This document shows, piece after piece, positions 11,144 to 27,219 of a stretch of 44,171 nt of DNA. The DNA lies in contig SUWE01000020.1 in assembly GCA_015061615.1 (NCBI GenBank), forward strand, positions 1 to 44,171, read 5' to 3'. The stretch comes from Lentisphaerota bacterium (GTDB taxonomy: Bacteria > Verrucomicrobiota > Lentisphaeria > Victivallales > Victivallaceae). Each line of letters starts with the position of its first letter. Position 1 is the stretch's first letter. The notes beneath the pieces are model-generated. The model did not search any database, had not been told where the DNA came from, and saw only the letters and a program-made list of their open reading frames with translations. The position numbers and the translations under genes are program-made.

Positions 11144-11177
11144 TTGTCAAGTATATTAAAATAATGTTGTTTTGCAA
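11129..11177. promoter_or_regulatory. Overlapping divergent promoters for xerC and the SH3 protein gene
   Basis: Plus strand: TTGCAC (11129-11134), 17 bases, TATATT (11152-11157) would start transcripts near 11164 toward the SH3 gene. Minus strand: TTGCAA (11172-11177), 16 bases, TATACT (11150-11155) would start near 11143, at the xerC ATG. The two -10 boxes share AGTATATT, so the promoters should exclude each other. Confidence 0.6.
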
Positions 11178-11205
11178 AATTGCAATCATAATAAAGGAGA
11201 TTTTA

Positions 11206-12042
11206 TTGAAAATGAAAAGAATTGTTATCTGTTTGCTCACTGTTTTTGCCTCATTTCTTCTGACGGCGGCTCCCAAAGGTACGGTCAACGGCGACAAAGT
11301 CAATCTGCGTCAGGGCGCGGGACTCAAGTTTCCGGTCGTCGGCAGAGTGGTCAACGGTCAGAGCGTGGAAATCACCCGCGTCATCGGTTCGTGGCTGGAG
11401 ATCGCTGTTCCGGAAAATCTCACTGCCTACGTCAGTGAAGCGCGCATCAATCCCGACGGAACGTTGAGCGGCGAATTGAATATGCGCACCGCCATGAGCA
11501 GTTCCGCGCCCATTCTGGGAGTTCTGCCCAAAGGAACAAAAGTCGAGCGTCTGGATAAACGCGCCAACGGCTGGGTGAAGATCAAGGTTCCGGCTTCCAG
11601 CGGAGTGAAGGTCTATCTTGCCGCGTTCCTTGTCACCTACAACAGTGCGGAGTTCGATGAAAAAGGCAATCCTGTTTCCGCTCAGAAACCTGCGGAGGTC
11701 AAACCCGCAGAAAAAGCTCCTGAAGCTCCTGCGGAAAAACCTGCTGAAGTCAAGCCCGCAGAAAAACCTGCTGAAGTCAAGCCCGCAGTTGAAAAAAAGC
11801 CCGCAGAAAAACTTGAACTTCAGGGAGTTCTTGTCAAATGGAAATACAGTACCGTTCCTGAAACCGCCTATGCGCTTCTCACTGAAAAAGACGGATTCAA
11901 TCAGGCATTCGTCACCGCCAGTGATTCCGCACTGCTGGTGAAGGCTGAAAACAAAAAAGTCAAAGTCTCCGGAGTTTCAGCCGGAAGATACGGCGATAAC
12001 GGCGCAATAATCCTGAAAGCAGATGTAATCAGTGTATTGTGA
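11206..12042 (+). CDS. Secreted protein with two bacterial SH3 domains
   Basis: Envelope protein of about 278 residues. A signal peptide (MKRIVICLLTVFASFLLTAA) is followed by one SH3b domain (KVNLRQGAGLKFPVVGRV...GSWLEIAV), a second (ELNMRTAMSSSAPILGVLPKG...GWVKIKV), and a low-complexity linker built from PAEK and PAEVK units (about 160-195). A C-terminal beta-rich domain of about 75 residues (from LELQGVLVKWKY) is one I do not recognise. SH3b pairs usually bind cell-wall or peptide ligands. AGGAG (11195-11199) is 6 bases before a TTG at 11206 and 12 bases before an ATG at 11212. I chose TTG, but ATG is possible and changes only two residues. Confidence 0.8.
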   Translation: MKMKRIVICLLTVFASFLLTAAPKGTVNGDKVNLRQGAGLKFPVVGRVVNGQSVEITRVIGSWLEIAVPENLTAYVSEARINPDGTLSGELNMRTAMSSSAPILGVLPKGTKVERLDKRANGWVKIKVPASSGVKVYLAAFLVTYNSAEFDEKGNPVSAQKPAEVKPAEKAPEAPAEKPAEVKPAEKPAEVKPAVEKKPAEKLELQGVLVKWKYSTVPETAYALLTEKDGFNQAFVTASDSALLVKAENKKVKVSGVSAGRYGDNGAIILKADVISVL

Positions 12043-12074: not shown

Positions 12075-12103
12075 TTGAAAAAATGTGTTTCAAGGTGTAA
12101 TAG
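12075..12103 (+). promoter_or_regulatory. Candidate promoter of the SPFH operon
   Basis: TTGAAA (12075-12080), 17-base spacer, TAATAG (12098-12103), immediately after the SH3 hairpin and 37 bases before the TTG start of the first SPFH gene. An AT-rich stretch (TATATATAAG) follows. The -10 is imperfect. Confidence 0.5.
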
Positions 12104-12139
12104 TATATATAAGTACAAACCAAAAGGAAAGGTTGAAAA

Positions 12140-14080
12140 TTGGAAAAAACAGAAGAGTACAAACGGACGGATGACCGCGCCCGTCTGCTGACAAAGCTGT
12201 CAGTTATCGGTGCGATCGGTTCATTGATATTGCTGGCATCGGTTCTGGTGCTTGCTTCAACCCGGGGCGGAGACGTGCTGTCTCTGGCGGCGATACCATT
12301 TGCATTATCGCTGTTTTTCTCGCTTACCTCGCTGATTTACAGCATCCTTTACGGAGCTGTCCAGCGCGAAGATGAGGAAAAACGGCTGCTCGCCCGCCGT
12401 ATGGAAGCGCGCGCGCTCAATGTTGAAGAGGATGTGCGCTTTACCGCCGGCAGAAGTTTCGCCAATTACACCCGCTTCGCCCCCTTCGTTATCGCCGGGG
12501 CATCGGCGGTGATAATCGGGCTGATGCTCTGGAAAAACAGTTCAATATGGGCGCTCCGCGACGGTGCCGCTGTTACGATGAACGGTTCCCCGGTGCATAC
12601 CGCGCTTATTGCGGCAGTGCTGATGATGGTCAGTGTCTTCGCCGGAGCGTTTATGATCGGTCAATCCCGTATGCCGGGGTTCCGCTGGCTGCGTCCGGTC
12701 GGTGCATGGCTGATGGCTGGATTCCTTACCCTTTGTGCCGCAGCAGTTTCCGCAGTGTGCTACTCCAATAATCTCACGCAGGTCGATCCGATCGTCACTC
12801 AGGTGTTTTTCTGGGTGTTCGTGGTGCTGGCGGTGGAGTTTGTCACCAATTCCGTCATCGAATTTTACCGTCCCAGGACCCTGGGCGAAAGCCGTCCGGT
12901 CTTTGAAAGTCAGCTGCTTGCGCTCTTTACCGAACCGGGCGGCGTGTGGCGCAATATCGCTTCGGCGCTGGACTATCAGTTCGGATTCAAGGTTTCCGGA
13001 ACCTGGATCTACGGATTCTTTGAACGCTCATTCTTCCCCGTGCTGATCCTCTGGGCAGTGCTGATATGGGGATTTACGACGGTGCATGAAGTCGGACCCA
13101 ACAATGTCGGTATCAAAGAGCGTTTCGGAAAGGTCGTTTCCGGCACGCTTGAGCCGGGAATCTACTGGACTTTGCCCTATCCCTTCGGCGGAATCAGACA
13201 GTTCAGCTGTTCCGAAGTCAAACGTCTGGTCATCGGAGAGAGCCTTGAAAGCGCCAAAGAGCGCGCCAACTCTCCGGTCGTTCTCTGGACAAATGCCCAC
13301 GGCGGCGCCAAAGAGCCGTTTATCGTTGCGGTCAAAGAACCTGACGCCGGCGGCAGGAAAGCTCCGGCAAAGGATGATTTGAGCGTCAGCAGTTCCAGTA
13401 TCTCCTTTGTCAATATGGCGATCCCCATCGAGTACCGCATCCGTAAAGACGGGGTGATGAAGTTCGCTTATGACAATATCGCCCCCGAAGCGATGCTGAA
13501 AAAGCTCGGCGAACAGGCGGTCGTCAGTTATCTTGCCGGTTCCACGATGGATGATATCATGGCAAGCGGCAGAGGCGATGCCGAAGCGGCGCTGAAAAAA
13601 GATATCCAGAATCTTGCCGATCAGAACTCACTCGGTGTGGAAATAATCCGCGTTGCGATCATGGATGCGCACCCGCCGGTCGAACAGGTCGCCCCCGCTT
13701 ATCAGAATGTTATAGCTTCTATCGAAGAAAAAGATACCGAAATACTCAAGGCGAAGGCATACGAGTACACCGTGCTGCCTGAAGCCGCCGCCCGTGCTTA
13801 CGCGATCGAAAATGCTTCCCGCAGCAAGGCGTACAGCGCGCAGGTCGTCGCCGCCGCTGAAAGTGAACGTTTTGAAAAACAGCTTGCGGCATTTACTGCA
13901 ATGAAGCAGATGTTCGTTCTCAATGCCATGATGGATGTTCTTTCCGCAGAAGGCAGTTCTGTGCGCAAGTTCATCGTTCCGGCAAATTTGAAAAAGCAGC
14001 TTTACGAAGTCAATCTTGAGACCAACGAGCGTCTCGACCTCGTGAATCTTGACGTATCCGAACTCAACGACAAAAAATAA
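12140..14080 (+). CDS. SPFH/band-7 protein with a seven-helix N-terminal membrane region
   Basis: A 646-residue HflK-like protein. Unlike HflK, which has one N-terminal helix, it has about seven predicted helices (near residues 20-40, 46-73, 113-131, 152-173, 184-207, 217-239 and 297-315). The SPFH domain begins right after the last (HEVGPNNVGIKERFGKV) and runs to about 540, followed by an Ala/Glu-rich helical segment that should oligomerise. SPFH proteins build cage- or raft-like membrane assemblies, and HflKC encloses the FtsH protease. The start is TTG with AAGGAAAGG 7 bases upstream, and no in-frame ATG fits. It is first of seven plus-strand genes, followed after 36 bases by an HflC-like gene. 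Its role is inferred as the scaffold of that cluster. Confidence 0.85.
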   Translation: MEKTEEYKRTDDRARLLTKLSVIGAIGSLILLASVLVLASTRGGDVLSLAAIPFALSLFFSLTSLIYSILYGAVQREDEEKRLLARRMEARALNVEEDVRFTAGRSFANYTRFAPFVIAGASAVIIGLMLWKNSSIWALRDGAAVTMNGSPVHTALIAAVLMMVSVFAGAFMIGQSRMPGFRWLRPVGAWLMAGFLTLCAAAVSAVCYSNNLTQVDPIVTQVFFWVFVVLAVEFVTNSVIEFYRPRTLGESRPVFESQLLALFTEPGGVWRNIASALDYQFGFKVSGTWIYGFFERSFFPVLILWAVLIWGFTTVHEVGPNNVGIKERFGKVVSGTLEPGIYWTLPYPFGGIRQFSCSEVKRLVIGESLESAKERANSPVVLWTNAHGGAKEPFIVAVKEPDAGGRKAPAKDDLSVSSSSISFVNMAIPIEYRIRKDGVMKFAYDNIAPEAMLKKLGEQAVVSYLAGSTMDDIMASGRGDAEAALKKDIQNLADQNSLGVEIIRVAIMDAHPPVEQVAPAYQNVIASIEEKDTEILKAKAYEYTVLPEAAARAYAIENASRSKAYSAQVVAAAESERFEKQLAAFTAMKQMFVLNAMMDVLSAEGSSVRKFIVPANLKKQLYEVNLETNERLDLVNLDVSELNDKK

Positions 14081-14116
14081 CAATTATATAATATAAATTG
14101 GAGGCAAAATAAAATT

Positions 14117-15046
14117 ATGGCAAGCGGAAACTTTTTCAAACATTGGCCGACGATGCTGCTCGGTCTTATCGTGGCGGTCATTCTGCTGACGGCGGTATTC
14201 TCATTCCAGCTCAATCAGACTGAAACTGCGGTGCTGACCACCTTCGGCAGACCTTCAGTGGTCTCTGAACCCGGACTGCACTTCCGGTGGCCCTTCCCGT
14301 TTCAGGAGGTCTACCGTTTCGACAAGCGCATCCGTTGTTATGAAGGCAGCAGCGGCAAACTTGAAGAAACCGTGACCAAAGACGGTCACAATATCATCGT
14401 CGGAATTTACGTCAACTACCGTATCGCCGATGTGAATGCGTTTTTCAGCAAACTCAAAAATGTCGCCGGCGGTGAGGAGATGCTCAACACCCTGATGCGC
14501 AGTGCGAAAAACACCGCCTTCGGTCAGCGCAACTTCGATCAGATCGTCAATGAAAACGGCAAAATGCTCAAACTTGATGCCGTTACCGATGATATCAAAG
14601 AAGCGTTGATCAGTGCGACCGCCAAATTCGGTATCGAGATCGTCGGTGTCGGTATCAACACTCTGGGTGTTCCCAAGACTGTCACCGAAAAGGTCTTTGA
14701 ACGCATGATCGCTGAACGCAAACAGTTTGCGGACAAAAATCTTGCCGAAGGTAAGCGCGAAGCCAAAGAGATCCGCGTAAAAGCCGATCTGGAGCGCGAC
14801 ACCATCATCGCCAACGCCGAAGCCAAAGCGCAGAAACTCCGCGCTGAAGGTGACGCCGCCGCCGCCAAATTCTACAAAGAGTTTGCCCGCGACCCCGAAC
14901 TGGCAGGATTCCTCCGCAAGATCGATGCTCTGCGTCTTATCATGGAAAAAGGCACGACACTGGTCATCGACACCAATGTTCCGCCGTTTGATCTGCTCAA
15001 ATCCGATGCGGTCATCCCCGGTGCCGCCAACTCCAACGCCAAGTAA
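14117..15046 (+). CDS. SPFH/band-7 protein, HflC-like
   Basis: A 309-residue protein with one N-terminal helix (about 12-30). An SPFH domain starts at NQTETAVLTTFGRPS and contains EPGLHFRWPFPFQEVYRFDKR, and a charged Ala/Glu/Lys coiled coil (about 190-255) carries repeated EAKxxR-type segments. Length and the GLHFRWPFP motif match HflC. It probably alternates with the neighbouring SPFH proteins in a membrane ring. GGAGG (14100-14104) lies 12 bases before the ATG, a long gap, but no nearer in-frame start exists. It is second in the cluster, 12 bases before the next SPFH gene. No ftsH lies in this window, so a protease partner must be encoded elsewhere or may not exist. Confidence 0.88.
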   Translation: MASGNFFKHWPTMLLGLIVAVILLTAVFSFQLNQTETAVLTTFGRPSVVSEPGLHFRWPFPFQEVYRFDKRIRCYEGSSGKLEETVTKDGHNIIVGIYVNYRIADVNAFFSKLKNVAGGEEMLNTLMRSAKNTAFGQRNFDQIVNENGKMLKLDAVTDDIKEALISATAKFGIEIVGVGINTLGVPKTVTEKVFERMIAERKQFADKNLAEGKREAKEIRVKADLERDTIIANAEAKAQKLRAEGDAAAAKFYKEFARDPELAGFLRKIDALRLIMEKGTTLVIDTNVPPFDLLKSDAVIPGAANSNAK

Positions 15047-15058
15047 AAGGAAGCGATC

Positions 15059-16189
15059 ATGGAGGAAAATAAAAGCGTAATCACCAATGAATTTGACCGG
15101 AGCGGCCGTTACGACGCCGGGTTGAAAGCATTGGCAAAAAGCCTCAGAGCAGCATTTCTGCTGCTTCTGATCGGCATCATCGCCACGCTGATCTACTTTG
15201 TCAGCGGAGCAGGATATTTCTCAGTCGAGCCGCAGCAGGCGGTCATCGTCACCCGTTTCGGCAAGGTCATACAGACCTGCAAATCCGGCGGATACTGGTT
15301 CCTGCCTTTCCCGGTGCATCAGTTCATCCGGGTGCAGACCAGCCAGCAGCTGCTTGATATCGACTTCGCCGCCGCGCCTTCGATGAATGAGTTCGGCGAC
15401 TCCTTTGAACCGGGCAGAGACAATTACGTCATTACCGGTGATGCGAATATCGTCCACAGCTCATGGACGATCGCCTACCGTGTCGAAAATCCGGAAAAGT
15501 ATTACCTCAACATGCTCACTCCCCAGTTCCCTGTGGAAAACGGCAAAGTGATGCCCGACGAGGTGTTCACCGATGCCGACGGCATGAAAGGTACGCGCGG
15601 TCCGGTGACTTTTCTGCGCAACATCTTCCGCCGGGCGGTCATTGACGTGACTGCCGAAGCGAAGGTCAACGATATCCTCTACGCCGGACAGAGCCAGTAC
15701 AGTGAGAATGTCCGCCGTGAGTTTGAAAAACTCCTCGGTCAGTATGACAGCGGTATCGTTATCGAAAATGTCGGACTCAACCGCATCTATCCGCCGGTCA
15801 AGACCAAAGCGGCATTTGAAGAAGTGACCTCAGCGGGCAACACCAGCAGCGCACTGCGCAACGAGGCGCTGGCTTACAAAGTCGAACAGGAAAACGAAGC
15901 GCGCGCTGCTGAAGCGTCGATCATCGCTGCCGGCAAAGCGTACCGCACCAAAGTCGTTTCCAGCCTTGAGGCACAGAGTGAACACTTCAGGAAGATCTAT
16001 GAACAGCACCGCCTGCATCCCGGAACCCTGACTATGGCACTTTACACTGAAATGCTCAAGGATATTGCCAAAGGGATGAAGGGCGACAAATTTGTCCTCG
16101 GTCAGAACGATCCGGGCAAAGAATTGTGGCTGAAGATAAACCGGGAACCGAAAACTTCAGCTGCACCCAAAGCTGCGGAGGATAAATAA
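15059..16189 (+). CDS. SPFH/band-7 protein, HflK-like
   Basis: Third SPFH gene, 376 residues. A short cytoplasmic N-terminus is followed by one helix (about 30-53) and an SPFH domain from SVEPQQAVIVTRFGKV with a GYWFLPFPVHQFIRV segment. A domain insert of about 45 residues (from QFPVENGKVMPDE to RGPVTFL) separates parts of the fold. The helical tail has EQENEARAAEASIIAAGKAY, as in HflK. AAGGAAG stands 5 bases before the ATG. Three SPFH paralogs in a row suggest a hetero-oligomer with distinct subunits. The stop is 2 bases from the start of the metal ATPase gene, implying tight co-expression. Confidence 0.87.
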   Translation: MEENKSVITNEFDRSGRYDAGLKALAKSLRAAFLLLLIGIIATLIYFVSGAGYFSVEPQQAVIVTRFGKVIQTCKSGGYWFLPFPVHQFIRVQTSQQLLDIDFAAAPSMNEFGDSFEPGRDNYVITGDANIVHSSWTIAYRVENPEKYYLNMLTPQFPVENGKVMPDEVFTDADGMKGTRGPVTFLRNIFRRAVIDVTAEAKVNDILYAGQSQYSENVRREFEKLLGQYDSGIVIENVGLNRIYPPVKTKAAFEEVTSAGNTSSALRNEALAYKVEQENEARAAEASIIAAGKAYRTKVVSSLEAQSEHFRKIYEQHRLHPGTLTMALYTEMLKDIAKGMKGDKFVLGQNDPGKELWLKINREPKTSAAPKAAEDK

Positions 16190-16191
16190 TC

Positions 16192-18234
16192 ATGAGTGAA
16201 CATATCCATAATCACAACGGAAACTGCTGCTGCGGACACGATCACGGCCATGAACATGAGCATGAACATCACGATCACTGCTGCTGCGGACACGACCACG
16301 GACACAAAGAAGACAGCACTTGCATCTGCGGTCACGATCACAAAGCCGAAGGCGGCGTCGGTCATGACCGGAGCATGGGCAGAGTCTTTTTCGCCCTCGT
16401 CGGCGGTATTCTGACTGCCAACTCGTTTATTCTCGGAGCATTGCTCCCGGAACAGCAGTTCGCCGCCCACATGTCGGCGCTTTTCGGTGCGTTTATTCTG
16501 GCGCTGCCGATCATTATAACAGCGGTCAAAGACCTTGTCCGCGGCAAAGTTTACATGAATGAGCTGGTCGCGCTGGCGATCCTTGCGGCGCTGGTGAAAG
16601 CGGACTTTCAGACGGCGGGCATTATTGCATTCTTCCTGCTGGTGACGATCATCATCGAAACCCGTACCGCAAGCGGTGCGCAACGCTCCATTGAAGAACT
16701 TATCAAACTGACTCCGAATACAGCGAACTTGCTCGATGCCGACGGCAATGAGCGCGAAGTTGCCGCTCAGGATTTGAAAGTCGGTGACAAAATTCTGGTG
16801 CGTCCCGGTGAAAACTTCCCTGTTGACGGTGTTATCGCTTCCGGTGAAAGTACCGTGAATCAGGCGTCGATCACCGGTGAATCCGTTCCGGTGGAAAAAG
16901 TTGCCGGTGAAGATGTTTTTGCCGGTACGCAGAACCTTACCGGTGCGGTCGAAGTGACCGTTACCAAAGTCGGCGGTGATACCACGCTCGGCAAGGTCAA
17001 AGAGATGATCATGCAGGCGGAAGCCAGCCGTACTCCGGTGGTGCGTATCATTGACCGCTACGCCGGTTACTACACTCCGACGGTGCTGATGATCGCATGG
17101 ATCACCTGGTGGTTCAGCCGCGATATGGATTCAGTTATCGCATTCCTCGTCATTGCCTGTCCGTGTGCGGTGGTGCTGGCGACTCCGACAGCGGTCGTTG
17201 CGGCGGTTGCGGCGGCGGCGCGTCTGGGTATCTTCATCAAAAATATCAGCCATCTGGAACTGGCAAGCAGAATCACTGCCTTTGTCTTTGATAAGACCGG
17301 TACATTGACCGATGGATTGCTTTCAGTTGTCAAACTTCAGGGTGCTGAAGGTGTGACTCCGGCGGAACTGCTCCGCTGTGCGGCATCGGTCGAGCGTTAC
17401 AGTAATCACCCGACCGCGCTGGCGATCATGAAACTTGCTGAAGAAGCGGAACTGGAACTTGATGAAGTTGCAGGATTTTCCGAAGTCCACGGCCGCGGTG
17501 TTTCCGCGACGGTTGCCGGAGTCCCCTGTCTGGTCGGCCGTGCGAACTGGATGCGCGATAACGGATTGAGTGTTCCTGAAAGCGATCCGGAAGAAGCCGC
17601 GGGCATGAGTGTGGTCTATGTCAGCAAAGACGGCAAAGTCCTCGGCTGGATCGGTTTCCGCGACAAGATCCGCAAGGAGTCTCAGGTACTTCTTTCCGAC
17701 CTCAAACGTCTCGGTGTCCGTTATTGTGCGATGGTCACCGGTGACCGTCAGTCCGTTGCGGAGGAGGTCGCCGGTCAGCTCAATATCGACGAGTTCAAAA
17801 GCGGCTGTCTGCCTGAAACCAAAGTCGAGTTCGTTGAAAATGTCAAACGCGACCATACTGTTGCGGTCGTCGGCGACGGTGTCAACGATGCTCCGGCGCT
17901 CGCCGCCGGCGATCTGGGTATCGCGATGGGAGCCATCGGCAGTGACATTGCCATCAACAGTGCTTCAGTAGCATTGATGACCAACGATCTGCGCCGCATT
18001 GCGATGCTGATATTCCTTGCGAAAAAGTCGCAGGTGGTGATCAATCAGAACCTTATTTTCGGTATGCTTTTCGTCTTTGGCGGTATGATACTTTCCATCG
18101 TCGGTCTGATGACGCCCATCTGGGCGGCGGTCATCCACGCCGGCAGTACGCTGGTCATTGTTTTCAACAGTGCCCGTCTGGTGCGTACCGGTGAGGAGCT
18201 GACTCTGGCGGAAAAGAGTGAATCGGAAAACTAA
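16192..18234 (+). CDS. P1B-type metal-transporting ATPase with His/Cys-rich N-terminus
   Basis: Inner-membrane metal pump of 680 residues. The first 62 residues replace the usual HMA domain with a His-rich tail holding three CxCGHDH units (Cys12-14, Cys30-32, Cys44/46). The core is complete: TGES (228-231), CPC in the metal-binding helix (323-325), DKTGT phosphorylation site (367-371), HP pair (406-407) and GDGVNDAP (561-568). The last helix carries HAGSTLVIVFNSARL (649-663), closer to the HEGG(T/S) motif of P1B-4 pumps than to the DxG of Zn/Cd/Pb pumps, yet the channel motif is CPC rather than SPC. Metal choice (Zn, Co, Ni, Cd or Cu) is therefore open. It lies 2 bases after the third SPFH gene and 22 bases before an ABC ATPase gene. 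Confidence 0.93.
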   Translation: MSEHIHNHNGNCCCGHDHGHEHEHEHHDHCCCGHDHGHKEDSTCICGHDHKAEGGVGHDRSMGRVFFALVGGILTANSFILGALLPEQQFAAHMSALFGAFILALPIIITAVKDLVRGKVYMNELVALAILAALVKADFQTAGIIAFFLLVTIIIETRTASGAQRSIEELIKLTPNTANLLDADGNEREVAAQDLKVGDKILVRPGENFPVDGVIASGESTVNQASITGESVPVEKVAGEDVFAGTQNLTGAVEVTVTKVGGDTTLGKVKEMIMQAEASRTPVVRIIDRYAGYYTPTVLMIAWITWWFSRDMDSVIAFLVIACPCAVVLATPTAVVAAVAAAARLGIFIKNISHLELASRITAFVFDKTGTLTDGLLSVVKLQGAEGVTPAELLRCAASVERYSNHPTALAIMKLAEEAELELDEVAGFSEVHGRGVSATVAGVPCLVGRANWMRDNGLSVPESDPEEAAGMSVVYVSKDGKVLGWIGFRDKIRKESQVLLSDLKRLGVRYCAMVTGDRQSVAEEVAGQLNIDEFKSGCLPETKVEFVENVKRDHTVAVVGDGVNDAPALAAGDLGIAMGAIGSDIAINSASVALMTNDLRRIAMLIFLAKKSQVVINQNLIFGMLFVFGGMILSIVGLMTPIWAAVIHAGSTLVIVFNSARLVRTGEELTLAEKSESEN

Positions 18235-18256
18235 CTTTCCTTAGAGAGGAATTTTC

Positions 18257-19441
18257 ATGGAACGCAATTATGAACCGGTAGTGCAGGCTGTGGGACTGAC
18301 AAAGATGTTCCGCGACTTCTGGCAGCGTCCGAAGGCCCGCGCGGTGAACGGCATTGACTTTGAGATCAAACCCGGCGAAGTCGTCGGACTTCTGGGGCCC
18401 AACGGATCGGGAAAATCCACCACAGTGAAAATGCTTCTGGGCTTGCTTTATCCCACCGGCGGCAATGTCACTGTTTTCGGCAAATCCCCGCGCGCGGTCG
18501 AAACCAAACGTGAGATCGGATATCTGCCTGAGGAGTCGTATCTGTACAAATTTCTGACTGCTGAAGAAACACTGGATTTCTTCGGATCGCTTTTCAACAT
18601 TTCCAAAGATGACCGCAGACGGCGTATCGACCAGCTGTTGGATATGGTCGGTCTGGCACATGCGCGTTACCGCCGTGTGGGTGAATTTTCCAAGGGAATG
18701 GCGCGTCGTATCGGTCTGGCACAGGCGATGATAAACGACCCGGCATTTCTCATCCTCGACGAGCCGACAAGCGGACTTGACCCCCTCGGCTGCCGCGAGG
18801 TGAAAGATCTTATTCTGTCGTTGAAAAAGCGCGGCAAAACGGTGCTTATCACCAGCCATCTGCTCAGCGACGTTGAAGATATCTGCGACCGTGTCATTAT
18901 TCTTTACGGCGGACAGATCCGCGCTCAGGGAGCGTTGGAAAATCTGCTGGAAGTGAGCGACAGGACCCGCATCATGTCTCCCCGTCTGCCGAAAGAGGCG
19001 ATGGATAAGGTTTTGGAAATACTCCGTGAAAATCTCAAAGGCGAGGAGTTCATCGTCGATCATCCGCGCCGGACACTTGAGGAGTTCTTCCTTGACGTGA
19101 TTTCCCAGGCGCGCCGCGAAAGTGTGGAAACTGCCGGTGTTGCCGGCAGCAGCGGTATCGCTGATTATCTTGCCGCTGATGCTGATAAGAGCGATAAAAA
19201 CGCGCTGCTCAATACTCTGCTTGCTCCCGGCTCATCTGTTGAGGAAAAAGCTGAGAAGCCGGAAGCGCCCGCAGTTGAAAAAAGCACTGCCGATGAAAAG
19301 ATCGCTTCAGTGCTCAATGAAAAAGTTGTCAAGAAAAGTGAAGCTGAAAAAGAGGTCGGAGATCTGGAACAGGCGGCGGAAAAAATGCGCCTTGCCAACG
19401 ATAAACTCGACTCTCTGCTCGGCGGCAGATCAGGTGAATGA
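18257..19441 (+). CDS. ABC transporter ATP-binding protein with C-terminal tail
   Basis: Cytoplasmic ATPase of 394 residues. Walker A is GPNGSGKST, the Q-loop region has YLPEESYLYKFLT, the signature is the altered FSKGMARRIGLAQA, Walker B is [12 protein letters not shown], and the switch histidine is in ITSHLL. The ATPase ends near residue 290. The remaining 100 residues are an Ala/Glu/Lys-rich linker plus a short coiled coil (EVGDLEQAAEKMRLANDKL), unusual for this family and possibly a docking arm. AGAGAGGAA precedes the ATG. Its stop overlaps the permease start (ATGATGA at 19438-19444), so the two form one transporter. Confidence 0.92.
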   Translation: MERNYEPVVQAVGLTKMFRDFWQRPKARAVNGIDFEIKPGEVVGLLGPNGSGKSTTVKMLLGLLYPTGGNVTVFGKSPRAVETKREIGYLPEESYLYKFLTAEETLDFFGSLFNISKDDRRRRIDQLLDMVGLAHARYRRVGEFSKGMARRIGLAQAMINDPAFLILDEPTSGLDPLGCREVKDLILSLKKRGKTVLITSHLLSDVEDICDRVIILYGGQIRAQGALENLLEVSDRTRIMSPRLPKEAMDKVLEILRENLKGEEFIVDHPRRTLEEFFLDVISQARRESVETAGVAGSSGIADYLAADADKSDKNALLNTLLAPGSSVEEKAEKPEAPAVEKSTADEKIASVLNEKVVKKSEAEKEVGDLEQAAEKMRLANDKLDSLLGGRSGE

Positions 19442-20868
19442 TGAAAGCATTTTTTGCCATAGTTGCTTTGACGTTCCGCAATGCGGTACGGTCACATATT
19501 TTTCAGCTGCTTCTGGCATTGCTGCTGATCTGTGTCATCGTCATTCCGGTTTCCGTATCGGTCGGCAAGCTGGATGATCTGATCCGGGTCTCGCTGCTTT
19601 ACAGCCTGTGGGCAGTAAGTATTATTCTCACACTGTCATCGCTCTGGCTGGGGTGCTATCTGATGTCGTTTGATATTGATTCGTATCAGATACACATGGT
19701 CGTATCCAAGCCGGTATCCAGAATCACCATCTGGCTGGGCAAATGGGCAGGGATCAACTTTATCAATATCATACTGCTTTTGCTGTCAGGTATCGTCATC
19801 TACGGTATCGTTATGATACGGTACAATGCGGCAAGTGAGGAAGGTTTGCTTTCCGACCGGGTTACGGCCCGTCAGAATGCGCAGAGTGAAAAAGAGCGTA
19901 TCCGTTCTCAGGTGCTGGTCGGCAGACGCAGTTTCATGCCCCGCAAACAGGATCCGGATGCGGCGGCGGATTTTGCGGTGAAAAATCAGCTTGCCAAACT
20001 GCGTGAACAGGGCAAACAGCCTGCGGATTCGGAAATTCTCAAGATCCGTGAAGAACTGCGTTCGCAGATCGACAAACTGCCGATCGAAGTCCAGCCGGGC
20101 AAAGCGTACCGCTGGGTGTTTGAAAATATTCCGGCGGATTTGAACGATGCCGGACTCAAGCTCCGTTACCGTCCGTATCTGGGCAAAGTTGCAACGGAAG
20201 ATCAGCGTGAAAGCCATATCCAGTGGGCAGTTTACGTTCCGCATACCGCGCAGGATGGGACGAGCGGACTTTATCCGGTTTCCCTGACGAACGGACCGGA
20301 GGCGCACTTTACCGGAATTTTCCACGAAAAGAGCCTGCCGCCGGGTGTTATCACCGCAGAAGGTATGGTTTTGATCGAGACGGCGAACTTTGACCGCATG
20401 GGCGGCAAGCACTATTATCAGCAGGCGGACGGACCTAAACTGCTTGTTCCTGTGTGCAGTTTTGAGATGAACTACCTGCGGGCGATGCTGGTGATGATGA
20501 TCCAGCTGCTTTTGCTTTCCGGTCTGGCGTGTGCATTCGGCGGATTTCTCACCATGCCGACGGCGGTTTTCATGGTGGTAAGTTATCTGCTTTTCGGTTC
20601 GCTGTCGATGATATTGACTGATGAATCGTTCTTCACCGCGAATATCTGGGATCATGCCGGAAAATTCCTTGCAAGTGTGCTGTTGATGATAGTTATTCCG
20701 CTTCAGCAGTTTGATGTGACCGATTTGCTTTCCAACGGTGAACTTATCGAGTTTTCGCTGATCGGCGAACTTTTCGGGAAATATTTTCTGTTGCGGGGCG
20801 TGCCGCTTTTCCTGCTCGGAATGTTTTTCTACTGGCGGCGTGAAATGGGAGCGGCAGTGAGAAAATGA
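19438..20868 (+). CDS. ABC-2/NosY-like permease with large soluble insert
   Basis: Membrane subunit of 476 residues paired with the preceding ATPase. Three helices (about 20-44, 51-78, 103-123) are followed by a soluble region of about 215 residues (about 125-342), which should lie outside the cytoplasm, then four or so helices (about 345-367, 370-392, 402-422, 447-465). The insert has RKQDPDAAADF and YVPHTAQDG stretches and matches no fold I know. ABC-2 permeases with such inserts are found in NosY- and Gld-like exporters. ATG at 19438 or 19441 are both possible. The stop overlaps the next start (ATGA at 20865-20868), so the downstream protein is probably a third component. Confidence 0.85.
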   Translation: MMKAFFAIVALTFRNAVRSHIFQLLLALLLICVIVIPVSVSVGKLDDLIRVSLLYSLWAVSIILTLSSLWLGCYLMSFDIDSYQIHMVVSKPVSRITIWLGKWAGINFINIILLLLSGIVIYGIVMIRYNAASEEGLLSDRVTARQNAQSEKERIRSQVLVGRRSFMPRKQDPDAAADFAVKNQLAKLREQGKQPADSEILKIREELRSQIDKLPIEVQPGKAYRWVFENIPADLNDAGLKLRYRPYLGKVATEDQRESHIQWAVYVPHTAQDGTSGLYPVSLTNGPEAHFTGIFHEKSLPPGVITAEGMVLIETANFDRMGGKHYYQQADGPKLLVPVCSFEMNYLRAMLVMMIQLLLLSGLACAFGGFLTMPTAVFMVVSYLLFGSLSMILTDESFFTANIWDHAGKFLASVLLMIVIPLQQFDVTDLLSNGELIEFSLIGELFGKYFLLRGVPLFLLGMFFYWRREMGAAVRK

Positions 20869-22541
20869 ACAGATTCCGCAACATGACTCTGATTTTGGCG
20901 CTGCTGCTTGTCACCCTGCTGGTGCTGGCGGGTATCCGCGGCATTGAGCGCAAGCTCGACACGACTATTGATTCTCAGCGGCTCCGCTTCACCGGAGCGG
21001 TCGCTGATGCACCGCCGGCGGTGGCGTTCACGACGATGGCGATGGGCAGTTTCCGCGGATTGCTGGCAGATATCCTCTGGCTCCGTTCTGAACAGCTCAA
21101 AGGCAAGAAAAATTACTTTGAAATGGTTCAGCTTGCCCGCTGGATAACCGACCTTCAGCCCAATTACTCCGGCGGAACGGTTTATCTTGCGTGGAATCTG
21201 GCGTACAATATTTCCGTTACGAGTTCCGACCGCGAGGACCGCTGGTACTGGGTCAACGAAGGTATCAAACTGGTGCGTGACAAGGCACTGCTTTACAATC
21301 CTGATGATCCGCTGCTGTACCGCGAACTTTCGTGGATATATCTGCATAAGCTCGGCAATCTGATGGACGACATGAACCTTTATTACAAGAGCCAGCTTGC
21401 TGAGATGATGACCAATATCCTCGGCAGTACCACGCCGGATTGGGAAAAACTGGCGGCGGCTCCGAAAAATAAAGAGGCATTCATGGAGCTGTATCCTGAG
21501 GATTCCGCGCTGTGGAAGGCGGTGGAAAAGGCGGGATACAAGGATTACGATGCGCTTTTTGAAGCGTTCCGCGCTCCCAAAGCCGCAGTTGCGGCTCCGT
21601 TGCAGATAAATGCTCCTTCAGCGGCAAAAGCGGAACTGCCCGCAACACTCAGACTCTATCTTTCGCAGGATGAGTTTGCGGCGCTGGACAGTTATTTCCG
21701 CGCGGAACTGCTGCGCCGGCGGCTGAAACTTGAACCTGCCCGCATGGTCGAAATAGATAAGAAATACGGCAAGATGGATTGGCGTGTCCCTGAATCCCAG
21801 GCGATATACTGGGCGACTGTCGGTGTGGAAAAGAGCATTGCCAATACCGGCAAACCTGATATCAACTGTCTGCGTATCATTTCCCACGGTTTGCAGTCCG
21901 GTTTCCGCAGCGGCAGATTGCTGACGGTCGATGCCACGGGCGAAACGATAAGTTCGATACCGAACCTGAATCTTACGGATTCCGCGTATGCCGCGTTTGA
22001 ACAGGGCGAAGCTGAGTTCAAAGACAGCGGAGCAGGCAGCAGTTTCCGCAGTGCGAAGATCAACTATCTTAAAGATGCGATACCGTTGATCTACATTTAC
22101 GGAAACGTGACCAAAGCACAGGAGTTTTTTGACCGGCTGGTCTCTGTTGACGGTCCGCAGAAGCAGAACAACCTTGACGAGTTTGTCATGGTGCATTACG
22201 CTGAAGATGTTCGTGATGCCGACGTGAAAAAGGCGAGTGCAGTCATCACCGGACTGGTGCAGAGAGCGATTTTCAATCTTCTGGTCGGTCAGCGTGACTC
22301 CGCAGTTACCAATGAGCGGCTTGCCCGTTATATCCACCGTATTTATACGCAGAAAAACTTCGATGTCAAGCGCAATACGCTGGCGCCTTTTGCTGAAATC
22401 AAAAAAGGTGTCGTCACCAATTTGCGCAACAATCTGCCGCCGATGATGAAGACTCTGCTTGAAGCTGAGATCGCCGCTGAGGAGGCGCAGAAGAAGGAAG
22501 AACTTTCTGAAAAAAACAGCGGGGGGAAAACAGCGATGTGA
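20865..22541 (+). CDS. Membrane-anchored helical protein of unknown function, last gene of the SPFH cluster
   Basis: Not assigned to a named family. The 558 residues begin with one membrane helix (about 7-24), so most of the protein lies outside the cytoplasm. A conserved-looking block, GSFRGLLADILWLRSEQLKG (61-80), is followed by KKNYFEMVQLARWITDLQP and a YLAWNLAYN segment. I recall similar GGxRGLxADxLWLR blocks in uncharacterised PVC proteins. The middle (about 110-190) looks like TPR-type helical repeats (PLLYRELSWIYLHKLG). The end is a short charged helix. The start overlaps the permease stop, so it is likely an accessory subunit of the ABC exporter. No catalytic motif is visible. Confidence 0.75.
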   Translation: MNRFRNMTLILALLLVTLLVLAGIRGIERKLDTTIDSQRLRFTGAVADAPPAVAFTTMAMGSFRGLLADILWLRSEQLKGKKNYFEMVQLARWITDLQPNYSGGTVYLAWNLAYNISVTSSDREDRWYWVNEGIKLVRDKALLYNPDDPLLYRELSWIYLHKLGNLMDDMNLYYKSQLAEMMTNILGSTTPDWEKLAAAPKNKEAFMELYPEDSALWKAVEKAGYKDYDALFEAFRAPKAAVAAPLQINAPSAAKAELPATLRLYLSQDEFAALDSYFRAELLRRRLKLEPARMVEIDKKYGKMDWRVPESQAIYWATVGVEKSIANTGKPDINCLRIISHGLQSGFRSGRLLTVDATGETISSIPNLNLTDSAYAAFEQGEAEFKDSGAGSSFRSAKINYLKDAIPLIYIYGNVTKAQEFFDRLVSVDGPQKQNNLDEFVMVHYAEDVRDADVKKASAVITGLVQRAIFNLLVGQRDSAVTNERLARYIHRIYTQKNFDVKRNTLAPFAEIKKGVVTNLRNNLPPMMKTLLEAEIAAEEAQKKEELSEKNSGGKTAM

Positions 22542-22579
22542 TTTGATAAAATCTTTTCAGTTGTTTTTCATCTGTTGTG

Positions 22580-22623
22580 CCGGAACAGCGCGCCGCTGAA
22601 CCGCTGTTCCGGAAAAAGTTTTT
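22580..22623 (+). terminator. Terminator of the SPFH-ATPase-ABC operon
   Basis: A perfect 11-bp stem, CCGGAACAGCG (22580-22590) with CGCTGTTCCGG (22602-22612), loop of 11, is followed by AAAAAG and TTTTT. It lies 38 bases after the last stop of the cluster. The intervening A tract weakens it as a textbook plus-strand terminator, but the hairpin is strong. Confidence 0.7.
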
Positions 22624-22684
22624 CAGCATTGAAGGTGTACGCTTGAAATTTTTTGCGTACAGATTTTTATATCGGGGAAAAAAA

Positions 22685-23977
22685 TTGGAGGATTACTTCT
22701 TATACGGCATTCTGCCGCATTCCGCACAGAACTGGCTTGTTTTTGCATTGAGTCTGAGTTGTGCATTGATTATTTCGCATATATGTTCACTGATGGAGGC
22801 GGCACTGCTGAGTCTTTCACCCAGTCAGCTTGCCGAACTGCGCCAGAAGCATCCGGCATCCGGTGAATTTGCCGCAACGCTCAAGCGTGAAATAGATAAA
22901 CCGCTTGCAGTCATTCTTATATTGAACACCGCTGCCCACACCATCGGTGCGGCTGTCGCCGGAGCAAGTTTTACGGAACTTGGTTACGGCAGATATATGG
23001 GGGCGTTTTCGCTCGTGTTCACTCTGGTGATGGTGCAGTATACAGAGCTGCTGCCGAAAACTCTCGGAGTGCGTTTCAACAGTTCGATAATGCGTATCGT
23101 GGTGCGTCCGCTTTATATTGCGACAATAATCCTTTCGCCGCTGATAAAACTCACCAAACTGATAAACCGTCCGTTTGAAGGTCATGCTCCGGCAAATCCG
23201 TCACCTGCGGAAGAGATATCGGCACTGGCGGCGATGGCGCGCAGTTCACAGGTGATTTCCAGCCGTCAGGAGCGGATAATCCGCATGGCTCCGTCACTTT
23301 CCGAAAAGAGTGCCGCTCAGGTGATGATCGCGTTGGAAGATGTTTCATTTCTCGATGCGGATATGTCGCTTGACGATGCGATCAATGCCACCGGAAACGA
23401 TTTCCACACCCGCTATCCGCTTTGCATCGAAGGTGACCGCAGTCAGGTTCCGGGATATGTGAATATCAAAGAGATAATCCTTGCGGTACAGCACGGCAAA
23501 GGGGATATGAAGGTGTCGGATATCATGCGTCCGATCGCGTTTGTGAAATCAGACGAAACGGCATCGAAACTTCTGGAAATGTTTGCCGCCCAGCATTGCC
23601 ACATGACTATTGTCCGCGATGCGGGTTCCGGAAAGACCTGCGGACTGGTCACGCTGGAAGATATCGTTGAAGAACTTATCGGTGATCTTGATGACGAATT
23701 TGACCCGCTGCCCCGGACATTCTATCAGCCCGGTGACAATCTGTGGGTCGTCGGCGGCGGCGTGCCGCTTGCGCAGATAGTGCGCGATACCCAGCTTGAT
23801 CTGCCGCGCCGTGCGGAACCGGTTTCCGTATGGTTCGGCAGGGAATCGGGCAAACAGGTCAAGGTCGGAGACACATTGACATGGAAAAATGCGGTCTTTT
23901 TTGTCCGCAAGATACGCCGCGGTCAGGCGTTGGAGTTTCACGTCAAACGGCGCAATTTGCGGCAGTTTGACTCCTGA
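22685..23977 (+). CDS. CNNM/CorC (HlyC-CorC) family membrane protein
   Basis: About 430 residues: a DUF21/CNNM transmembrane domain (hydrophobic segments from LVFALSLSCALIISHI, with the typical SLMEAALLSLSPSQLAEL), two CBS modules (about 215-345, with GLVTLEDIVEELIGDLDDEFD) and a C-terminal CorC/HlyC domain. The family is linked to magnesium or cobalt homeostasis. No ATG start fits. I chose the TTG at 22685, which has GGGGA 6 bases upstream. TTG at 22643 with GAAGG 7 bases upstream is a good alternative adding 14 residues. A longer GTG at 22577 would sit inside the terminator and is unlikely. It is probably a single gene between two terminator/promoter boundaries. Confidence 0.87.
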   Translation: MEDYFLYGILPHSAQNWLVFALSLSCALIISHICSLMEAALLSLSPSQLAELRQKHPASGEFAATLKREIDKPLAVILILNTAAHTIGAAVAGASFTELGYGRYMGAFSLVFTLVMVQYTELLPKTLGVRFNSSIMRIVVRPLYIATIILSPLIKLTKLINRPFEGHAPANPSPAEEISALAAMARSSQVISSRQERIIRMAPSLSEKSAAQVMIALEDVSFLDADMSLDDAINATGNDFHTRYPLCIEGDRSQVPGYVNIKEIILAVQHGKGDMKVSDIMRPIAFVKSDETASKLLEMFAAQHCHMTIVRDAGSGKTCGLVTLEDIVEELIGDLDDEFDPLPRTFYQPGDNLWVVGGGVPLAQIVRDTQLDLPRRAEPVSVWFGRESGKQVKVGDTLTWKNAVFFVRKIRRGQALEFHVKRRNLRQFDS

Positions 23978-24781: not shown

Positions 24782-25165
24782 ATGGTCGAACTGGATTTTG
24801 AAAAGAGCAACGGACTCATCCCCGCAGTCGCACAGGATTGGCAGACAGGTGAGATCCTGATGCTGGCGTATATTTCCCCGGAATCGTGGGCGGAGACCCT
24901 GAAATCAGGTTGTGCAACTTATTTTTCCCGCAGCCGCAACAAGTTGTGGAAAAAGGGTGAATCCAGCGGTCATGTTCAGAAAATACACTCAATTCTGGTC
25001 GATTGCGACCTCGATACTGTGGTATTCAAAGTCGAACAGCTCGGTTCCGGAGCATGTCACACCGGACACAGAAGCTGTTTTTACCGGGAAGTTGACGGAG
25101 AAACTCTCCGTGAAACAGAAAAGCCGGTTTTTGATGCGGATAAAGTCTATCAGGTGAAAAAATGA
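24782..25165 (+). CDS. hisI: Phosphoribosyl-AMP cyclohydrolase
   Basis: Histidine biosynthesis step 3, 127 residues, a stand-alone HisI without a fused HisE domain. Motifs: WKKGESSGH, the metal-binding DCDLDT, and the zinc-binding CHTGHRSCFYR. GGAG (24770-24773) lies 8 bases before the ATG at 24782. In-frame GTG (24773) and TTG (24776) starts lie too close to it. The stop overlaps the next start (ATGA at 25162-25165). No other his gene is nearby, so the pathway genes are dispersed. Confidence 0.95.
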   Translation: MVELDFEKSNGLIPAVAQDWQTGEILMLAYISPESWAETLKSGCATYFSRSRNKLWKKGESSGHVQKIHSILVDCDLDTVVFKVEQLGSGACHTGHRSCFYREVDGETLRETEKPVFDADKVYQVKK

Positions 25166-27219
25166 CTTCGATAATAAATCTTCTGCGCAGTGAAATAGAA
25201 GGATTGAAGATCCTTGAAAAACGCTCCTACAAAGAGCTGACTTCGCTCGGCGTCGGCAGTGCCGTGCTTCCGGCGATGATCGAACCGGAAAATGAGGAAC
25301 AGCTTGTAGAAGTCCTCAAAATTCTCGCCCGTAAAAAATTCCCGTTTTTTCTTTTCGGTGCCGGAACGAATCTCGTCGGCAGTGACAAACCGCTTCAGGC
25401 GGTCGGTCTGCGGCTTGCGGGCAAATATTTTTCCCGCGTGGCGATAAATGGTGAAGATGTCAACTGCGGCGCATACGCCCGTCTGCCGCTGCTGGCGGCA
25501 CTCTGCGGCAAAGCCGGACTCGGCGGACTTGCCCCGTTATCCGGAATCCCCGGAACCATCGGCGGTGCGCTCCGCATGAATGCCGGAGCAAACGGCGTTG
25601 AGATCGGCTCTCTGGTCAAAGAGGTCAGGGGATTTTACAGTGACGGCAAGCCGTACCATGTGCAGGGCAGTGAAATAGAGTGGCTTTACCGCGGCAGTTC
25701 CATTCCGGCAAATGTGATAATCACCGAAGCGGTGTTTTCGCTCAAAGAGAGCAGCTCCGCGCTTGAGGAGGAGGAAATCTGCCGCGAAACTGAACGCAGA
25801 AGAAAACGTGAACCTGCGGGCAGAACTGCCGGTTGTGCCTTCCGCAACGTATCCGATCTTGACCCGGCGGGCAAACTCATTGACCAGTGCGGTCTGCGCG
25901 GTTTGCGTGTAGGCGATCTTGTAGTCAGTCCGGTTCATGCGAACTACATTCTCAACATGGGTGAGGCATCTGAAGCGGATTATCTGGAAATAGTCCGCAT
26001 CATCCGCCGCGCGGTGAGTGCCAAACACGGATTTTATCTTATTCCGGAAATAATTTCAGTTAATCCGGAGTTGAATGCGCTTATCAGCGACGATACCCCC
26101 GCACCCAAAGTCAACCTGCTTTGCGGCGGTATCAGCAGTGAACGCGAAGTTTCCCTTGCCGGCGGCGAAGTCGTCACCCGTGCGCTGCGCAAAGCCGGAT
26201 TCAAGGTTGAAAAAAGCGATATCCGCAGTTGTGATGTGACACCATCCATGCGTGACGCGGATGTGGTATATCCCCTGCTTCACGGCGGATTCGGTGAAGA
26301 CGGCACCTTGCAGAAGGTGCTTGAAGGTGAATCGATCCGTTTTGTCGGTTCCGGTTCCGCATCGAGCCAGCTGGTGATGGATAAGATCGCAACCAAAAAA
26401 CTCCTTGACCGTATCGCGCTGCCGACTGCGGCATGGGGAACGGTTTCCCGTCATGCAAGGCAGCTGCCGGCACATTTGGATTTTCCGGTCATCCTCAAAG
26501 CGCCGTGTGAAGGTTCATCCGTCGGTATCGTGAAGGTCAACAGCGCCATTGAGTGGGAAACTGCACTTGATGAGGAGTTCAAATACGCCGATGAACTGCT
26601 GGTCGAAAGTTTTATTACCGGTACGGAAATAAGCATCCCCGTACTCAACGGCGAAGTGCTTGAAGCGATCGAGATCGTGGCGCCGTCGGGATTTTATGAT
26701 TACAATTACAAGTATCACAGCAACGAAACACAGTATTTCATGCCGCCGCGTGAATTGCCCGAAGCGGTGATCGCTCTGGCGAAGGATTATGCGTTGAAAT
26801 TTTATCATGCCGCCGGATGCCGCGATATCCTGCGGGTAGATTTCATCGTCGACGGTGACGGAGTTCCGCGTATTCTTGAAGGAAACAACCTGCCCGGCAA
26901 CACCGATCACAGTCTTGTTCCCAAAGCGGCGCGTCACGCGGGCATTTCCATGGAAAAAATGGTGGCGATGATGGTCTATTGTGCAATGAAACGCTCCGGT
27001 GAGCCGCCGTTGACCCGTGCCGTGGAAAAAGAGAGCCGTGCCGGAAGATTTTTCCGCAGATTTTTCAACATACTTTTCAACGCTGCCGCATTTGCCGGCG
27101 GCGGAGTGCTGGTCTATGCCGGAAAATTCCGCCACGAAGGAACTCCCGCTGTTCTGCTTATGGCAGGCGGACTGCTGCTGGCAATTTACGGTCTCTGCCG
27201 TCAGTTTGACCGCCGCTGA
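25162..27219 (+). CDS. MurB-Ddl fusion with C-terminal membrane tail
   Basis: One 685-residue protein joining two peptidoglycan precursor enzymes. Residues 1 to about 300 are UDP-N-acetylenolpyruvoylglucosamine reductase (MurB): FAD-binding FGAGTNLV and SGIPGTIGGALRMNAGANG, YRGSS, and catalytic Glu296 in YLIPEI. The usual catalytic Ser of the G-S-x-F motif is Cys225 (GCAFRN). Residues about 315-610 are D-alanine-D-alanine ligase: GGISSEREVSLAGG, LHGGFGEDGTLQ, KAPCEGSSVGIVKV and LEGNNLPGNTDHS. A third part (about 630-680) has two predicted helices, so it may be membrane-tethered. Separate MurB and Ddl are the norm, and Chlamydia fuses MurC with Ddl. The gene overlaps hisI and precedes the gcvT-like gene by 11 bases. 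Confidence 0.93.
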   Translation: MTSIINLLRSEIEGLKILEKRSYKELTSLGVGSAVLPAMIEPENEEQLVEVLKILARKKFPFFLFGAGTNLVGSDKPLQAVGLRLAGKYFSRVAINGEDVNCGAYARLPLLAALCGKAGLGGLAPLSGIPGTIGGALRMNAGANGVEIGSLVKEVRGFYSDGKPYHVQGSEIEWLYRGSSIPANVIITEAVFSLKESSSALEEEEICRETERRRKREPAGRTAGCAFRNVSDLDPAGKLIDQCGLRGLRVGDLVVSPVHANYILNMGEASEADYLEIVRIIRRAVSAKHGFYLIPEIISVNPELNALISDDTPAPKVNLLCGGISSEREVSLAGGEVVTRALRKAGFKVEKSDIRSCDVTPSMRDADVVYPLLHGGFGEDGTLQKVLEGESIRFVGSGSASSQLVMDKIATKKLLDRIALPTAAWGTVSRHARQLPAHLDFPVILKAPCEGSSVGIVKVNSAIEWETALDEEFKYADELLVESFITGTEISIPVLNGEVLEAIEIVAPSGFYDYNYKYHSNETQYFMPPRELPEAVIALAKDYALKFYHAAGCRDILRVDFIVDGDGVPRILEGNNLPGNTDHSLVPKAARHAGISMEKMVAMMVYCAMKRSGEPPLTRAVEKESRAGRFFRRFFNILFNAAAFAGGGVLVYAGKFRHEGTPAVLLMAGGLLLAIYGLCRQFDRR

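Follow-up and report, generated by a model that had tools for sequence, protein, structure and literature searches.

The SPFH proteins HflK and HflC of E. coli are described as enclosing FtsH, human stomatin domes are reported to associate with AQP1 and UT-B (PMC12407830), and in some marine bacteria a flotillin gene is tied to rhodopsin (PMC10308929). Here, we describe a block of seven genes, three of them encoding SPFH proteins and one a P1B-type heavy-metal ATPase, in a 44,171-nucleotide stretch of DNA from a Lentisphaerota bacterium (assembly GCA_015061615.1, contig SUWE01000020.1; hereafter, the window), and we propose, with a probability of roughly 0.6, that the SPFH proteins and the pump are physically coupled (i.e., that an HflK/C-type dome would hold the metal pump as its client). 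SPFH domes with clients are already known.

The block extends from position 12140 to 22541 and comprises seven listed open reading frames, all on one strand (TM, transmembrane segment; aa, amino acids):

S1, 12140..14080, + strand: about seven predicted TM and an HflK-like SPFH domain; 646 aa, TTG start
S2, 14117..15046, + strand: HflC-like SPFH protein; 309 aa
S3, 15059..16189, + strand: HflK-like SPFH protein; 376 aa
PA, 16192..18234, + strand: P1B-type heavy-metal ATPase, His/Cys-rich at the N-terminus, with a CPC motif and, in its last TM, HAGST; 680 aa
AB, 18257..19441, + strand: ABC ATPase with a C-terminal extension; 394 aa; ABC_tran match
PM, 19438..20868, + strand: NosY-fold permease with a beta-sandwich insert at about residues 163-340; 476 aa
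U7, 20865..22541, + strand: one predicted TM and a helical, possibly TPR-like domain; 558 aa

As an earlier note on this DNA had stated, the genes are co-directional and separated by gaps of 2-36 bases or overlapping: the gaps from S1 to AB are 36, 12, 2, and 22 bases, and AB/PM and PM/U7 overlap by 4 bases each. It was also right that there is no protease gene among the seven, the sole Peptidase_M41 match of the genome being located on another contig (C73; the window is contig C37 of a 2.7 Mb assembly that is 84.65% complete). The analysis confirms that the block is real rather than a chance arrangement and that it consists of two modules, a core (S1, S2, S3, and PA) and an ABC unit (AB, PM, and U7); one indivisible seven-gene unit is ruled out, as the ABC half splits off in relatives.

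Compared with the E. coli HflK/HflC-FtsH assembly (7vhp, 7wi3), the block likewise has adjoining HflK- and HflC-like SPFH genes with sequence matches to the cage chains, but it has three SPFH genes, one of them with about seven predicted TM, as well as genes for a P1B pump and an ABC transporter, and lacks a protease gene. An SPFH oligomer together with a transport protein, for the block a proposal, is also found in the stomatin dome, but there erythrocyte stomatin is combined with a passive channel or transporter, whereas the block combines HflK/C-type proteins with an ATP-driven pump and is known from genes alone (PMC12407830). In the flotillin-associated rhodopsin cluster, gene order connects a bacterial SPFH gene with a membrane protein from a family of ion pumps, but without HflK/C, without a metal pump, and with no fusion mentioned in the available part of that article (PMC10308929). 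In the part seen of the 2009 classification of prokaryotic SPFH proteins into subfamilies 1-12, S2 and S3 resemble the SPFH3 (HflK/C) group; the operon partners given there are NfeD proteins, and the words P-type and ATPase are absent from its main text (PMC2636767). The term P-type is likewise not used in the accessible portion of a 2026 survey of SPFH proteins in Pseudomonas (PMC13086221), and among the open-access articles listed as matches, judged by their titles and the starts of their abstracts, no description of an SPFH-P1B (P-type ATPase) operon or fusion was found.

All three SPFH proteins pass the Pfam Band_7 cut-off of 23.6 bits (S1, 44.2; S2, 105.9; S3, 73.2). S2 is the sole member of the trio to pass an NCBIfam model, namely hflC (TIGR01932; 146.1 versus 134.4); S1 (89.4) and S3 (118.8) fall below the NCBIfam hflK cut-off of 159.4 and are for this reason called only HflK-like. 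By profile, the nearest solved structures are the E. coli HflK/HflC cage chains, with E values of 5.7e-44 for S1 against HflK chains, 2e-26 for S2 against HflC chains, and 5.8e-17 for S3 against HflK chains. Hydropathy gives one hydrophobic segment each for S2 and S3 and about seven for S1, the last immediately N-terminal to the SPFH domain; on this simple segment count, the SPFH domain of S1 would face the periplasm, like that of HflK.

A search with S1 covered 115 genomes of the phylum, and matches with E < 1e-25 were taken as S1-type, a limit set afterwards (the weakest accepted match has 2.2e-28, and the next one 3.2e-12). An S1-type protein is present in 46 of the 115 genomes, the window's included, and the stretches around the S1 matches of the other 45 gave 48 loci (the window and L162 of genome G112 were left out, and L068, with a CDF-SPFH fusion, was kept). 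A P1B ATPase lies on the same strand within 11 kb of S1 in 39 of the 48 loci, or in 41 if two contig-end cases are added: L163, in which the pump is truncated, and L059, where the contig stops 525 bases past S1 and another contig of the same genome (L221) ends in S2-S3-PA. In 26 loci, all seven genes are present in the order of the window, and a 27th (L063) has the full set with the pump first. In both L063 and L066, the pump precedes S1 instead of following S3, so the linkage has survived a change of gene order. Nine further loci, which we picked for spread from a wider survey of 387 genomes, have the core in every case (the contig of L223 ends within the pump). It should be noted that the sets of loci partly share genomes, and the spacing tallies across relatives are therefore not independent.

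Co-occurrence at the level of whole genomes was counted as the intersection of the S1, U7, and PA match lists, with the PA clade, again delimited afterwards, taken as matches of at least 430 bits plus G067 (354 bits, 69% identity, cut at a contig end); the next match has 398 bits (G093). Every one of the 46 S1-type genomes has the PA clade; in the remaining 69, it was seen solely as a fragment at a contig end (G094). The five plain HflK/HflC pairs inspected (L071-L075) have no PA match, and no P-type ATPase is annotated within 8 kb of three annotated plasmid hflK-hflC pairs. The outcome that the earlier note had named as contrary to its proposal, SPFH genes occurring mostly without the ATPase, is thus true of plain HflK/HflC pairs (5/5) but was not found for the S1-type trio.

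Further evidence comes from single chains in which a metal transporter and an SPFH domain are joined. In four genomes (G007, G020, G053, and G114), a single frame of 959 to 1055 residues passes the Pfam cut-offs for E1-E2_ATPase, Hydrolase, and Band_7; the four chains align across the junction, with 44-76% identity to the first, and an HflC-like and an HflK-like gene come downstream of every one. A fifth P1B-SPFH chain, in G287, is cut at a contig end with all three domains present, so that such chains are found in at least 5 of the 387 genomes. Full-length matches to a second kind of fusion, with Cation_efflux and Band_7 in one protein of about 510 residues (CDF-SPFH), were obtained in 3 of the 387 genomes (G229, G275, and, as L068, G114), with a P1B ATPase on the same strand 3' of the cluster in G229 (2.6 kb) and G275 (1.6 kb). 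A fourth CDF-SPFH gene comes from Aquibium oceanicum, an alphaproteobacterium, where it lies on a conjugative plasmid, the sole record with at least 80% query coverage among 61 plasmid records matched. There, HflC, HflK, a peptidylprolyl isomerase, and a heavy-metal P-type ATPase come after it, and the cluster continues with PCu(A)C, SCO, and DsbB, copper-handling genes among them. HflC- and HflK-like genes follow the CDF fusion in all four cases. For the P1B-SPFH chain, none of the 5000 best plasmid records reached a coverage above 80%. With two unrelated metal-transporter superfamilies fused to HflK-like domains, the fusions are the best evidence that these SPFH complexes may hold metal transporters. 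As a separate observation, CDF-SPFH clusters from two phyla have genes for PPIC-type peptidylprolyl isomerases at their flanks (L232, 3281-5269 and 10106-11221; L234, 13137-14831).

PA itself passes the cut-off for heavy-metal P-type ATPases (TIGR01525; 532.3 versus 346.25) and has the catalytic motifs DKTGT, TGE, and GDGxND, with DKTGT intact in 85 of 85 aligned family members. The earlier note had spoken of a His/Cys-tailed pump; the His/Cys-rich stretch is indeed present, at the N-terminus. PA does not have the Lys and Asp of the P1B-2 (ZntA) class in its last two TM, which read LFVFGG and IHAGST (ZntA-type controls L198, L213, and L217 have both K and D), nor the MxxSS of the P1B-1 (CopA) class in the last TM, where it has HAGST (MAASS in controls such as L196 and L197). 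The P1B-4 (CoaT) class is reported to carry SPC plus HEGxT (PMC8880997), found as SPC and HEGST in control L216; PA has CPC and HAGST instead, with a His where HEGxT has its His. The combination of CPC and a last-TM His was rejected as a mark of SPFH-linked pumps alone, as L219 and L220 combine CPC with HNAGS and gave no SPFH match in their 14-kb stretches. As to the surroundings of the pump in relatives, genes for a DtxR-FeoA regulator and FeoB (13704-16001 of L066) adjoin the pump-S1-S2-S3 locus on the opposite strand, and CobW is among the neighbors in L065, both in favor of the proposed coupling to a metal pump. In G086, genes resembling an Azt/Mnt-like metal ABC importer, all under curated cut-offs, are located at a distance of about 3.7 kb from a PA-type pump that is itself unlinked (L187, 2167-4773).

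We infer from the block and the fusions a mechanism along the following lines. S1, S2, and S3 would assemble into a mixed dome of the HflK/C type at the periplasmic side of the inner membrane; PA would occupy the membrane patch under it, in the place that FtsH has in E. coli. From there, PA would use ATP to transfer transition-metal ions from the cytosol into the enclosed space, its His/Cys-rich N-terminus gathering or sensing the metal. The extra 7-TM module of S1 probably recruits the pump, and in the fusions the pump itself, or a CDF transporter, would stand in the place of this module; AB-PM-U7 probably acts on the same compartment. More tentatively, and with somewhat less than even confidence, HflK/C-type domes may serve as transporter vaults, in which one HflK-like subunit has an exchangeable membrane module (7-TM, P1B pump, or CDF) and the dome encloses metal transporters, providing a secluded periplasmic space in which metal is released or handed over, independently of FtsH; this may hold for many relatives in the phylum and for at least one plasmid of an alphaproteobacterium. 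If true, this would widen the role of HflK/C from protease modulator to transporter housing, and the conserved SPFH-pump block and its natural fusions provide directly testable complexes.

Several observations weigh against the proposed coupling of trio and pump. In four loci of one genus, S1 has moved off, and S2-S3-PA stay linked with the ABC genes next to them (in L170, to the contig end only). In G086, two loci have the trio without an adjoining pump, all seven gene kinds being present but scattered in the genome, and no P1B match was found within the stretch around the CDF fusion in L068. The sole fused pump in the tree (L069) falls outside the main PA clade, and the fusions may therefore be a parallel system that arose by parallel recruitment. 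No second HflC over the cut-off was seen in the window's genome. Finally, 10 of the 61 pumps in the tree are without CPC (having CPV, VPA, LPC, IPC, CPI, or CPG), through at least five changes, which weakens a universal metal role.

Among the alternatives, the one that survives best, though we consider it unlikely, is that the trio is the lineage's ordinary HflK/C dome for FtsH and that nothing more than a common envelope-stress operon connects it with the pump and ABC genes. The hflC score of S2 and the identity of the nearest solved chains, which are the HflK/C chains of the FtsH assembly, speak for this, as does the presence of a Peptidase_M41 (FtsH) match in 115 of 115 genomes. The window's host, a gut bacterium, has just one such match, and its other SPFH genes (a stomatin-like gene beside one that is NfeD-like by eye, and a gene for a 624-aa protein) are under both the hflC and the hflK cut-offs, so the trio may have an FtsH role in this genome, where a second HflC is also missing from the matches over the cut-off. 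However, FtsH is far from S1 throughout the genomes searched (where the two share a contig, the nearest distance is about 34 kb, in G046), and G294 carries both an HflK-HflC pair of its own (L242) and the core, the latter with ABC ATPase and permease genes up to the end of the stretch (L224); in that genome, the trio is therefore not just a stand-in. The five plain HflK/HflC loci without a PA match, the three plasmid pairs with no P-type ATPase annotated nearby, and the single-chain fusions of HflK-like domains with metal transporters of two kinds also speak against this alternative.

Somewhat less likely again is co-regulation under metal stress, in which the trio, the pump, and the ABC genes would share a promoter but no complex. 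The tight spacing of the genes suits a single operon, and both the splitting-off of the ABC unit in several families and the scattered genes of G086 speak for this reading; the joining of a pump or a CDF transporter with an SPFH domain in one chain, the presence of both pump and S1-type gene in 46 of 46 genomes, and a linkage that outlasts a change of order all argue against it.

The pumps without CPC also have a poor His/Cys tail: His and Cys together number at most 2 in 10 of 10 non-CPC pumps and at most 4 in 6 of 51 CPC pumps. With the cut at 4, which we chose ourselves, CPC loss and a poor tail are associated by Fisher's test when kinship is ignored (p 9e-8); a kinship-aware sign test over the pump tree is not significant (median p 0.25). 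In some lineages, the pumps without CPC are kept under purifying selection, the ratio of nonsynonymous to synonymous substitution (dN/dS) being about 0.11 in two CPC-lacking pairs and lower, 0.02 to 0.06, in CPC controls, figures that rest on near-saturated synonymous sites (proportion of synonymous differences, pS, 0.67). Because of this ratio and the DKTGT motif intact in all 85 sequences, the CPC-lacking pumps look like working ATPases, whatever their cargo, and, as members of the block without the metal motif, they would offer a way into how P1B ATPases change substrate. That PA itself is shifting to a different job (another substrate, or the handling of membrane proteins inside the dome) as metal binding is lost would suit these ten pumps, with their repeated changes, poor tails, and conserved ATPase, but is improbable, as CPC and the His/Cys-rich tail are both retained in PA of the window and in the majority of the family, and the fusions involve metal transporters, CDF included.

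Turning to the ABC unit, NosFY-type transporters have a beta-helical partner, NosD; U7 is unlike such a partner, its model being helical except for two short strands. AB passes the ABC_tran cut-off of 25 bits with 116.8, and neither PM nor U7 matches a Pfam or NCBIfam family at E 0.001. The predicted permease fold of PM is NosY-like, as in the NosFY transporter (7o0z), from which the unit differs in the beta-sandwich insert of PM and in having the helical, possibly TPR-like U7 as partner; the shared fold does not show a shared cargo. Profile searches of U7 against solved chains gave chance-level matches only, and Foldseek found no convincing whole-protein match for U7 or PM. The unit is complete in 27 of the 48 S1-type loci (ABC ATPase in 30, permease and U7 in 27), is split from the core in several families, and has U7 in 24 of the 69 genomes without an S1-type gene (two of these matches, in G013 and G039, are weak, with E ~1e-4). 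Of the best 80 of at least 578 loci with U7 relatives, 74 bear Lentisphaeria-, Lentisphaerae-, Victivallis-, or Oligosphaeraceae-type names. The best reading is that the ABC unit is an accessory second module, separable from the core. The platform for metal-linked transport that the earlier note had suggested for the whole block is strongly supported in its SPFH-pump half, by linkage, co-occurrence, the order change, and the fusions, and more weakly in its ABC half; a role in quality control, which the note had offered as the other choice, may also apply.

Some smaller observations concern S1 in relatives. The S1 frame of L162 (3492-5495) holds a stop, through either an error or decay, with the remaining six block genes matched whole. 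An extra permease gene with weak similarity to PM or ABC-2 stands 5' of S1 in seven loci (L054, L056, L060, L223, L227, L229, and L230), accompanied in L056 by an ABC ATPase. Plasmid records with an S1 match numbered 23, none with a coverage above 80% of the query.

Two short features flank the block in the window:

Hairpin 3' of U7, 22580..22612, + strand: 11-bp arms at 22580-22590 and 22602-22612
Weak sigma-70-like promoter match 5' of S1, 12075..12104, + strand: 9 of 12 consensus positions, with TG before the second hexamer

The strong hairpin said to close the block does exist, with a z-score of -2.88 for the 61-base stretch 22570-22630 and 2 of 200 shuffles equally stable, but it is not a textbook terminator, as AAAAAG precedes its five T, and a scan with loops of up to 8 did not pick it up. 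The promoter scan 5' of S1 gave 18 matches versus 10.9 in shuffles, which is no evidence of function. Directly after the block lies a CNNM/CBS gene (22577-23977), whose listed GTG start precedes the hairpin and whose real start is probably further downstream; members of a family that looks alike by eye are near 24 of 55 complete blocks. A gene for an SH3-domain protein (11164-12042) lies 5' of S1, with a family alike by eye near 7 of the 55. Further downstream, the open reading frame at 25162-27219 encodes a protein of 685 aa, which, by eye, we take to resemble fused MurB-type and Ddl-type cell-wall enzymes.

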